IMG/VR virus record: IMGVR_UViG_3300007363_000089
Coordinates: 1 to 25,974 of that record
Source: a virus
DNA: 25,974 bases
Strand: one strand, 5' to 3'
Shown here: positions 7,973 through 17,000 of the stretch, one piece after another
Layout: the number at the start of each line of letters is the position of its first letter
Position numbering within the stretch: position 1 is the first letter of the stretch
The notes under the pieces: model-generated
The model's database searches: none
What the model was told of the DNA's origin: nothing
The model's input: the letters and a program-made list of their open reading frames with translations, nothing else
Position numbers and translations under genes: made by a program

Positions 7973-8029
7973 GTAAATGCTAACATAGTTTCAGATACAG
8001 AAAAAAATCGGTTTGGGCTGTCCGTACGT

Positions 8030-8049
8030 ACGCGCCTATACGCGCCTAT
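8030..8049. repeat. Tandem 10-bp repeat
   Basis: ACGCGCCTAT occurs twice head to tail (8030-8039 and 8040-8049), preceded by the palindrome CGTACGTACG (8023-8032). It lies in the 122-base gap before the zinc-ribbon gene and could be an operator. No more can be said. Confidence 0.4.
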
Positions 8050-8094
8050 GTTCGAGGCCCTGCCGATGCAACAGCGGCCAATTAAAGGAATCCT

Positions 8095-8403
8095 ATGCTT
8101 ATTAAATGCCCTGCTTGCTATCAGAAGATCGGCCCCTATGACCGTAGCTGCCCCTGTGGCTGGTCGATCAGCGAATCAATGGCCCCTCCCTCCCATAATT
8201 GCGGCTGGCCCGATTGTACGGGCGCTGCTGCCACTAGCGTTATGGCGGCAGGTAAACGGGTGAACCTGTGCATGACGCACTATGCAGAATACCATCGCCG
8301 CCAGGCTAACGCGGGTGCGAAGGCTAAAGGACTGAATACCCCTGAGGCTTGTAGGGAATGGCTGAAGCAGAACAAGCTGCGCCCCATGAAGTTTTTGACT
8401 TAA
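8095..8403 (+). CDS. Zinc-ribbon protein
   Basis: A 102-residue protein opening with CPAC (5-8) and CPCGW (19-23), a compact zinc ribbon, followed by a second cluster with HNCGWPDC (33-40) and CMTH (about 59-62). The C-terminal part is basic and helical (YHRRQANAGAKAKGL) and ends in a short helix with EACREWLKQ. Two zinc sites plus a basic tail suggest nucleic-acid or protein binding. AAGGAATCCT precedes the ATG. It closes the counter-defence-like block and is followed by the structured gap. Function unknown. Confidence 0.75.
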   Translation: MLIKCPACYQKIGPYDRSCPCGWSISESMAPPSHNCGWPDCTGAAATSVMAAGKRVNLCMTHYAEYHRRQANAGAKAKGLNTPEACREWLKQNKLRPMKFLT

Positions 8404-8789
8404 TTATTTTTCGGTGGCAGAATTCCATTGCCTGTGAAAAAGACAGGTCGCTTCAGCGGTGGAGCGTGGAACACAGAGAAACCATACGCATTGGGTTTCG
8501 GTCTTGATGTGCGACATTCTGTGTTCTGCGCCCATCATAACCGCGACCTGAAACCCAAGCCGTATGGTTTTTTCTTTTTCCTAGCTAGTAGCAAACACGG
8601 GGGTGAGGCCCGCCCCTCGCGTCGGTAGAGGCGACCAAGCGAATAGACGCTGCATTAAACGGCATGGTGTCCGTTGCTGAGAATATCTCGGCGTTGCAAC
8701 CGGAAACGAGAGCCTCCCTCAATTTTTGAGGAACCCCACATATATACGTGGGGCCGTTGACTATGTGTGAATGTAGGAGATTAGGAAAA
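8404..8789. other. Structured gene-free region, candidate RNA locus
   Basis: This 386-base gap has no credible protein gene. It contains a long hairpin ending in a T-run (8478-8580) and then a series of shorter hairpins: AGCG/CGCT (8638-8651), AACGG/CCGTT (8658-8675), CCTCA/TGAGG (about 8716-8731) and CCCCAC/GTGGGG (about 8734-8753). The density of inverted repeats is far above that of neighbouring sequence. The last palindrome sits just before TTGACT and the DUF5710-like gene, so it may be an operator. The 5' part (8430-8580) is listed separately as an RNA candidate. Confidence 0.55.
8430..8580 (+). ncRNA. Candidate structured RNA or unusual terminator with pseudoknot potential
   Basis: The outer stem pairs AAACCATACG (8479-8488) with CGTATGGTTT (8561-8570). 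It continues after a two-base mismatch with TTGGGTTTC (8491-8499) against GAAACCCAA and a GGTC/GACC step. A second stem, GATG.GCG against CGC.CATC, closes the top. Within the terminal loop TCTGTGTTC (8518-8526) is perfectly complementary to GAACACAGA (8469-8477) just upstream of the outer stem, which allows a pseudoknot or an alternative fold. A T-rich run (8567-8579) follows, as in an intrinsic terminator. The mismatches within otherwise long pairing look like an RNA rather than a DNA palindrome. No known RNA family recognised. Confidence 0.5.
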
Positions 8790-13666: not shown

Positions 13667-14101
13667 ATGACCAGTTCAAAAAAATGTTTCAAGTGCGAGT
13701 CCGTCAAGCCATTAACCGAATTTTATAAGCACAAGAAAATGGCTGACGGACACCTTAACAAATGCAAGACATGCACAAAATCTGACGTTACAAAACATCG
13801 GGATGAAAACATTGATCGCATCAGAAAATATGACCGTCAAAGAGCAAAACTTGCTCACCGCATTAAATTGCGTACCGATGTTAATAGGGCTTGGAGGGCA
13901 GAAGATACTCGCAGGCAAACTGCCCACAATGCAGTTAGAAGGGCAATTATCAAAGGATCAATTATTAAATCGCCATGCGTTAAATGCGGAAATGAAAAAT
14001 CTCTTGCTCACCATGAAGATTACGGAAAACCTTTAGACATAGTTTGGCTATGTCAGGTTTGCCATAAAAAAAGGCATAAAGAAATGAAAGCTATTTTCTG
14101 A
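13667..14101 (+). CDS. HNH endonuclease with N-terminal zinc finger
   Basis: A 144-residue protein. An N-terminal zinc finger has CFKC (7-10) and CKTC about 23 residues later. The middle is a basic helix, and the C-terminal HNH-like core reads CVKCGNEKSLAHHEDYGKP then WLCQVCHKKRH. The HH-x-D-Y and the C-x-x-C-H pairs are the metal site of this HNH subclass, common in free-standing phage endonucleases. The gene is more AT-rich than the recombination genes around it. AGGAG lies upstream; its stop overlaps the next ATG as TGATG. It may be a homing endonuclease; a packaging-linked nuclease is less likely because it is far from terminase. Confidence 0.82.
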   Translation: MTSSKKCFKCESVKPLTEFYKHKKMADGHLNKCKTCTKSDVTKHRDENIDRIRKYDRQRAKLAHRIKLRTDVNRAWRAEDTRRQTAHNAVRRAIIKGSIIKSPCVKCGNEKSLAHHEDYGKPLDIVWLCQVCHKKRHKEMKAIF

Positions 14102-14517: not shown

Positions 14518-14982
14518 ATGGCTAAGATATTGCCGATTACAAGACAAAGAATAGAGCAAAAAATTGAGCGCGTAACTGAATCTGGATGCTGGATTTGGAT
14601 GGGTGCCACTCAGGTAAGAGGATATGGAGAAATAATTTCTCATAACAGAAAACTTCTGGCGCATAGAGCATCATACGAGACTTTTGTTGGGCCTATACCA
14701 AAAGGAATGTATGTTTGTCATATCTGCGACAACGTTTATTGCGTTAATCCATCCCATCTTTTTCTTGGAACGCAAAAACAAAATCTTGAGGACATGGCTA
14801 AAAAAGGCCGCAGCACTAAAGGAGAGAAAAATCCAATGGCAAAATTAAATAAATCTACTGTTCAATGTATTCGTTCTGAAATAGAAAAAGGAAAATCTGA
14901 TTTAGAGCTTTCTGATTGCTGGAATGTTTGTCGTCAAACAATAAGCAACATAAGAACGCGGAGGACTTGGAAAAATGTCTAA
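14518..14982 (+). CDS. HNH homing endonuclease with C-terminal HTH
   Basis: A 154-residue protein of the HNH_3-like class. GCWIWMGATQVRGYG (23-37) is its first beta element, LAHRASYE (about 48-55) gives the first His, GPIPKGMYVCHICDN and CVNPSHLFLGT (about 77-88) give the Asn and second His, and NLEDMAKKGR closes the core. The C-terminal part (SDLELSDCWNVCRQTISNIR) is a helix-turn-helix for DNA recognition. This is the architecture of free-standing phage homing endonucleases such as the I-HmuI group. It is AT-rich relative to its neighbours, and its end overlaps the glycosyltransferase start by 8 bases, as expected for a mobile gene fixed in an operon. Confidence 0.88.
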   Translation: MAKILPITRQRIEQKIERVTESGCWIWMGATQVRGYGEIISHNRKLLAHRASYETFVGPIPKGMYVCHICDNVYCVNPSHLFLGTQKQNLEDMAKKGRSTKGEKNPMAKLNKSTVQCIRSEIEKGKSDLELSDCWNVCRQTISNIRTRRTWKNV

Positions 14983-16499: not shown

Positions 16500-17000
16500 T
16501 TAAAGATTAGAGCCTTTTCGCAAATTATCTATTGCGGGGATTATTTGCAAATTTTCAAATTCGTGTTTACCGCCTTTTGATAACGGTATTATATGGTCAA
16601 CATGGAACCTTTCACCTAAAGACATAGCTGTATAAAAGTCTCTAAGCGCATAGACCTGAATAATATTTTTGTCAGTTTCTACGCGAATAAGACTTCTTCG
16701 TTTTGCGTTATCAGATAATATTCTCGCTTTGTTTCGCAGCCTGTCATTGCGCTTCCACTTTGCAATTTTTTCTGGGTTGCAAACTCTGTATTTTCTATTT
16801 CTTTCAAGTTTCTTGTCGTAGTTTTTCTGCACACTTCGCTTAACAGCGTCCCTATGCGCTTGAGGATTTAGTTTCCTGCGCTCTTTCATTATTTTTGCAT
16901 AGCAAGATTTGCATCTTCCTTGACGGCCGTCTTTTAGTCTTGAATCAGGACTAAACATGATTAACGGTTTATCAAAACCGCAAGATAGGCATTTCTTCAT
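16500..17000 (-). CDS. HNH endonuclease inserted in lysis cassette
   Basis: A 166-residue protein. The N-terminal zinc finger CLSCGFDKPLIMF ... CKSC closely resembles that of the HNH at 13667-14101. A long basic helical middle (KLERNRKYRVCNPEKIAKWK) follows. The C-terminal core is a classic HNH: HVDHIIPLSKGGKHEFENLQ then IPAIDNLRKG. Start overlaps the holin stop by ATGA, and 14 bases remain to the endolysin start. It is AT-richer than its neighbours. A free-standing homing endonuclease is the best reading. Confidence 0.9.
   Translation of the reverse strand: MKKCLSCGFDKPLIMFSPDSRLKDGRQGRCKSCYAKIMKERRKLNPQAHRDAVKRSVQKNYDKKLERNRKYRVCNPEKIAKWKRNDRLRNKARILSDNAKRRSLIRVETDKNIIQVYALRDFYTAMSLGERFHVDHIIPLSKGGKHEFENLQIIPAIDNLRKGSNL

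Follow-up and report, generated by a model that had tools for sequence, protein, structure and literature searches.

A predicted phage small noncoding RNA gene, RNA1, with a hypervariable yet always paired pseudoknot helix

Comparative sequence analysis indicates that positions 8430–8579 (+ strand) of an IMG/VR virus record of 25,974 bases, analysed here over its whole length and called the window, are a previously undescribed phage small noncoding RNA gene with its own predicted promoter and terminator. We call this gene RNA1. As judged from the aligned members, one helix of its fold, PK1, is hypervariable yet always paired, and the remainder is nearly frozen. A preliminary description of this DNA had pointed to a possible new RNA at 8430–8580, and the covariation, the predicted promoter and terminator and the lack of an Rfam match all speak for it. 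Since covariation, promoter and terminator together define an RNA gene, this is one that Rfam lacks, and a direct search of the literature found no description of it. The gene, its boundaries, its fold and its confinement to viral contigs, as far as the searched collections show, are supported at the level of sequence. To our knowledge, few phage noncoding RNAs rest on comparative evidence as strong. The features of the region are as follows.

8395–8423, +, predicted sigma-70-type promoter: −35 TTGACT (8395–8400), 17-nt spacer, −10 CAGAAT (8418–8423); from fixed-offset scoring
8430–8579, +, RNA1, discrete noncoding RNA gene; from homologues, CM model, no common reading frame and no Rfam match
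8430–8448, +, P1 hairpin CCTGT/ACAGG closing the A-rich loop GAAAAAG; from automatic recovery in nearly all members
8449–8466, +, P2 hairpin CGCT/AGCG with PK2a, GCGGT (8456–8460), in its loop; from parsed members
8469–8477, +, PK1a, GAACACAGA, whose partner PK1b is in the apical loop; from permutation test, pair counts and hold-out members
8479–8570, +, P3 as a whole; from pairing, folding energy and pair counts
8479–8488 / 8561–8570, +, P3a outer stem, 10 bp, AAACCATACG / CGTATGGTTT
Between P3a and P3b, +, 2x2 internal loop CA/GC of P3
8491–8503 / 8545–8558, +, P3b as a whole, with bulged T8549; sequence strongly conserved
8491–8499 / 8550–8558, +, 9-bp part of P3b, TTGGGTTTC / GAAACCCAA
8500–8503 / 8545–8548, +, 4-bp part of P3b, GGTC / GACC
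8506–8536, +, P3c apical stem GATG.GCG (8506–8513) / CGC.CATC (8529–8536), whose loop holds PK1b
8518–8526, +, PK1b, TCTGTGTTC, exact complement of PK1a
8540–8544, +, PK2b, ACCGC, partner of the P2 loop; from permutation test
8568–8579, +, U-tract TTTTTTCTTTTT, completing an intrinsic-terminator-like structure after P3a; from T count in members
8590–8760, +, "RNA2" type A, second conserved noncoding block 3′ of the terminator; conserved in other contigs

The outer stem of 10, 9 and 4 bp, the inner stem and the T-run that the preliminary description had noted are all present, and the complementarity that it had seen between the loop at 8518–8526 and the segment at 8469–8477 is exact and is kept with other letters in 43 distinct homologues (weakly in L135). 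The 5′ hairpins P1 and P2, the second pseudoknot PK2 and the promoter are additional to that description. In this topology PK2 joins the P2 loop to the strand 3′ of P3c, and PK1 joins the P3c loop to the strand 3′ of P2; we know of no reciprocal loop-to-tail double pseudoknot of this kind among described families. That P1, P2, PK1 and PK2 are conserved outside the terminator stem agrees with the view of the preliminary description that a plain terminator is unlikely.

Relatives were first gathered via the antirestriction protein and the gene upstream, and four clearly different homologues (L002, L003 with its copies, L004 and L081) each have the hairpin and the loop-to-upstream complementarity with differing letters. 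A DNA pattern based on the 5′ half of RNA1, which is conserved, matched 54 viral stretches, which with the window make 39 distinct primary members after duplicates and one chance match are dropped. A third pattern yielded five further contigs and four more distinct members, in which P3b has a G-U variant (its match L256 was set aside as chance), for a total of 43 distinct RNA1 sequences, all from IMG/VR viral contigs. The 31 contigs returned by an independent 3′-half pattern were all already known from the 5′-half pattern, and because it returned known contigs only, both halves are truly conserved and this is not an effect of how members were picked. RNA1 is about 150 nt long in the window and 140–160 nt by prediction among members; it is single-copy in each record and present in 26 of the 45 records searched.

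An exact-pattern search, which divergent prophage copies could escape, of a genome collection that represents 84,980 bacterial and archaeal species by one genome each gave no convincing homologue; its single match (L244) looks like chance, the rest of the motif being absent. blastn with three queries against isolated phages and plasmids gave chance matches only. Two GenBank phages with a 72%-identical terminase lack RNA1, so RNA1 is accessory. We infer that the carriers are dozens of uncultured phages, largely of freshwater type, and the Betaproteobacteria-1 RNA found behind RNA1 in some of them (see below) suggests betaproteobacterial hosts. RNA1 is an RNA that is widespread in viral metagenomes and absent from Rfam.

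Conserved coding across the region, which the preliminary description had named as the counter-case to an RNA, was not found: no reading frame is open in all RNA1 members, and a 66-aa ORF at 8428–8628 was rejected as a coding explanation, its frame not being conserved among them. The + strand from 8425 to 8585 folds at −64.3 kcal/mol with pseudoknot energy excluded, compared with −42.8 (SD 4.05) for dinucleotide shuffles (z −5.3; 0 of 200 as low), and CM model R1, whose E-values are rough, scores 150 bits on the + strand against 25 bits on the − strand. None of the 4227 families of Rfam 15 matches RNA1 at gathering or relaxed thresholds, and the best relaxed match, a microRNA-precursor model at 23 bits against a gathering threshold of 89, is chance-level.

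The covarying structure is bounded by a predicted promoter and a predicted intrinsic terminator, as in a discrete bacterial-type sRNA gene. An unconstrained scan for the best promoter was uninformative; the informative test was one at fixed distance, in which the −10 box must end 4–8 nt before P1, applied to the 31 members with enough upstream sequence. The mean score at this place is 9.71, with 30 of 31 members at 8 or above, compared with 6.23 (SD 0.17) for shuffles and 5.6–6.6 at other offsets. The −10 box ends 6 nt before P1 in most members, including the window, where transcription is predicted to start at about G8430; L209, L225 and L237 have poor −10 boxes at the expected place. At the other end, at least 6 of 9 positions of the U-tract are T in 39 of 39 members.

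Members were parsed by anchors into P1, P2, P3a, P3b, P3c, PK1 and PK2. Because MAFFT alone misaligned the variable helices, pairing was assessed by permutation of the parsed segments, comparing each member's own partner with those of other members in 31 representatives below 85% identity (20,000 permutations). True PK1 partners have a mean helix score of 21.5 as against 11.25 (SD 0.55) for permuted ones (z 18.7; 0 of 20,000), and for PK2, which is 5 bp in the window and 5–9 bp in other members, the corresponding values are 17.8 and 14.3 (z 7.2; 0 of 20,000). In each of four hold-out members, found without the 5′ anchor, PK1 beats all 39 foreign partners; PK2 of the same four is no better than many foreign partners by the same scoring. 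Thus the covariation that the preliminary description had proposed to look for is strong in PK1, by permutation, pair counts and hold-out members alike.

The contrast between PK1 and the rest is sharpest in a close subfamily of seven members that includes the window. Here 95.6% of cells are paired, compared with 36–47% when the segments are slid, and the covariation score is 0.244 against 0.087 in shuffles. Eight of the nine PK1 pairs are altered on both sides, and there are no two-sided changes among the pairs of P1, P2, PK2, P3b and P3c (p about 8e-6 for PK1 compared with P2, P3c and PK2 by Fisher's test, a value that is indicative only, since pairs are treated as independent). L081 and L214 do not differ in the other compared segments, and their PK1a segments share 69% and their loops 65%. 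Conserved sequence is concentrated in the P1 loop and in P3a-internal loop-P3b, the conservation of P3b being partly selected, as it served as a search anchor. A hypervariable, always paired helix in a nearly frozen surround points to selection for pairing specificity. A search of the same contig for a second target of the PK1b loop was uninformative, its output being swamped by self-matches.

The geometry of PK1 is constrained by the linker from PK1a to P3a, which has a median of 2 nt (0–6 nt in all but two members), and PK1b sits at the distal end of a helix longer than 20 bp. Judged by helix dimensions, so short a linker keeps PK1 from stacking atop a straight P3, and an intramolecular PK1 would need P3c to fold back along P3. 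This leaves three options, namely P3c folded back beside P3, intermolecular pairing or alternating states. In about ten members PK1 extends to 12–17 contiguous pairs, and since the extension reaches into the 3′ arm of both P2 and P3c, strand exchange is possible.

RNA1 often lies close behind a gene and near replication and recombination genes; the window itself encodes terminase-like, antirestriction and clamp-like proteins and a RecE-like exonuclease, and the neighbouring genes of the various loci are helicase-, primase-, ParB-, methylase- and RecE-like (putative, read from sequence). These genes differ among contigs, and in some, such as L209, L213 and L225, RNA1 is flanked on one side or on both by a gene of the other strand. 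No single neighbouring protein is conserved across RNA1 loci, so a phage-encoded partner is not indicated. A link to the antirestriction gene was considered and rejected, as RNA1 is missing from most records that carry this gene. The next same-strand element, a noncoding block or a gene, comes within some 20 nt in most members, so regulated read-through is conceivable. We also note that in L169, L219 and L243 the ATG of a protein beginning MPERIDVNFYPFHIGDYLS comes after the RNA1 U-tract, with no obvious ribosome-binding site.

Because neighbouring genes vary and some are on the opposite strand, action in trans is the most likely mode for RNA1, and we hold it with good confidence; a cis regulatory leader is disfavoured as its main role, since the neighbours are not of one kind and can face away. 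RNA1 is probably an independently transcribed, trans-acting phage sRNA, which may combine a conserved protein-contact part with a lineage-specific PK1 lock. Host sigma-70 RNA polymerase would start at about 8430 and transcription would end near 8575–8579, in the U-tract that follows P3a. The RNA would then fold into P1, P2 and the long P3, tied by the two nested pseudoknots PK1 and PK2. The conserved P1 loop and P3a-internal loop-P3b would bind a protein of the host or of the phage, and RNA1 would serve as a decoy or as the RNA of a ribonucleoprotein in the early, replication-recombination stage; the pattern of conservation makes such a protein-binding or decoy role a tentative proposal. PK1 may be a phage-specific lock, a reading suggested by its being fast-changing yet always self-complementary.

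Several other explanations bear on PK1. It (and PK2) might be intermolecular: in an antiparallel homodimer or oligomer each RNA1 would pair its 5′ domain with its partner's apical domain, and the hypervariable helix would keep assembly specific to the phage's own RNA. The short linker and the distant PK1b would be easily accommodated in this way for both pairings, PK1 differs between the otherwise identical L081 and L214 with pairing kept, and the phage-encoded ROOL and GOLLD RNAs are a precedent for homo-oligomers made through kissing loops (PMC12286853). One molecule can also satisfy PK1 if P3c folds back beside P3, and we regard oligomerization as rather doubtful. It is unlikely, too, that RNA1 is an RNA self/non-self tag, a new class of phage RNA that assembles with copies of itself or recognises kin through its hypervariable, self-complementary PK1; if it were, each phage lineage would hold a private pairing code on a frozen RNA scaffold. 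That RNA1 could instead be a cis-acting attenuator, in which co-transcriptional PK1 and PK2 compete with the terminator P3 to control read-through into the next block or gene, would fit the promoter directly upstream, the second conserved block that immediately follows in most members and the competition of extended PK1 with P2 and P3c. The downstream parts, however, are of unrelated types and sometimes a gene, L209 has an opposite-strand gene downstream with only a simple hairpin between, and PK1 has far less stability than the complete P3 stem, all of which make this quite unlikely. The terminator with switchable folds of the preliminary description finds some support in the extended PK1, which would compete with P2 and the apical stem, but neighbours that vary and can face away speak against a cis role as the main one.

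An immunity or copy-control RNA, similar to P4 CI or plasmid incompatibility RNAs, would have its PK1b loop pair in trans with PK1a of nascent RNA1 from an incoming or sister genome and so alter termination. PK1 is hypervariable and always self-complementary, as an immunity or incompatibility determinant would be, and the promoter-leader-terminator layout and the location in an early or replication module are as expected. Nonetheless, the suggestion of an immunity-like RNA in the manner of P4 CI gained no positive evidence: there is no C4/P4-type Rfam match (the C4 family matches neither the window nor 14 homologous loci), integrase, sought as PF00589 only, is found in just 2 of 27 RNA1-bearing records, many of them fragments, and there is no consistent downstream gene to silence. 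We consider such a role improbable. The P3 stem and U-tract do have the form of a terminator, but three separate segments covary in 43 sequences, CM model R1 is strand-specific and the promoter is conserved, so it is extremely improbable that the region is an ordinary terminator whose complementarity arose by chance, or a hairpin that acts as DNA, for example an origin.

In the P4 CI and P1 C4 antisense RNAs a loop is complementary to a segment just upstream on the same strand, in association with termination. RNA1 is likewise an own-strand phage RNA with a hairpin loop that matches an upstream segment and with termination, but it differs in its two nested covarying pseudoknots, its own predicted promoter and terminator, its lack of an Rfam match and of a constant downstream gene, and its carriers, which are mostly without detected integrase. 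The phi29-type pRNA is a small phage RNA whose loop pairing needs complementary, changeable sequences, and RNA1 loop pairing is of this kind; RNA1, however, adjoins replication-recombination genes and has no Rfam match, and because it is absent from relatives with a similar terminase it is not needed for packaging. An intrinsic terminator shares the P3a stem and U-tract, which probably terminate RNA1, but in RNA1 the stem is long and conserved, and it is joined by two pseudoknots, two further hairpins and a promoter of its own. ROOL and GOLLD are phage-encoded structured noncoding RNAs of unknown function with covarying pseudoknots or kissing loops (PMC12286853). RNA1 resembles them as a phage-encoded structured RNA with covarying pseudoknots, but it is about 150 nt rather than several hundred, has another structure, matches neither of their covariance models and, at the loci examined, lies outside any tRNA island.

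The second block, RNA2 type A, has counterparts at L002:9625-9800, L003:6378-6560, L004:4015-4198, L081:3312-3475 and L226:6180-6330(-). It carries the motifs CGGGG..CCC..CCCT, GACCAA and (G)ATAAACGAGA, and a small number of compensatory changes fall in its 5′-side helix. Its place is taken in other phages by blocks of several types that look unrelated, and in three contigs the Betaproteobacteria-1 RNA (RF02932) lies directly behind RNA1 (L207:3417-3536(-), L228:3150-3268(-) and L239:6838-6959(-)). The latter occurs in the same phages as RNA1 and possibly on the same transcript, but it is a separate RNA, RNA1 itself giving no match to it. The typed second blocks suggest that these phages have a modular noncoding-RNA locus, which would place the orphan RNA Betaproteobacteria-1 in a phage context.

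Elsewhere in the window, three small ORFs at 13667–14101, 14518–14982 and 16500–17000 look by eye like HNH-type endonucleases, two of them near each other. A short intergenic tandem repeat, tacgcgcctat / acgcgcctat, lies at 8025–8050, upstream of the gene that precedes RNA1.
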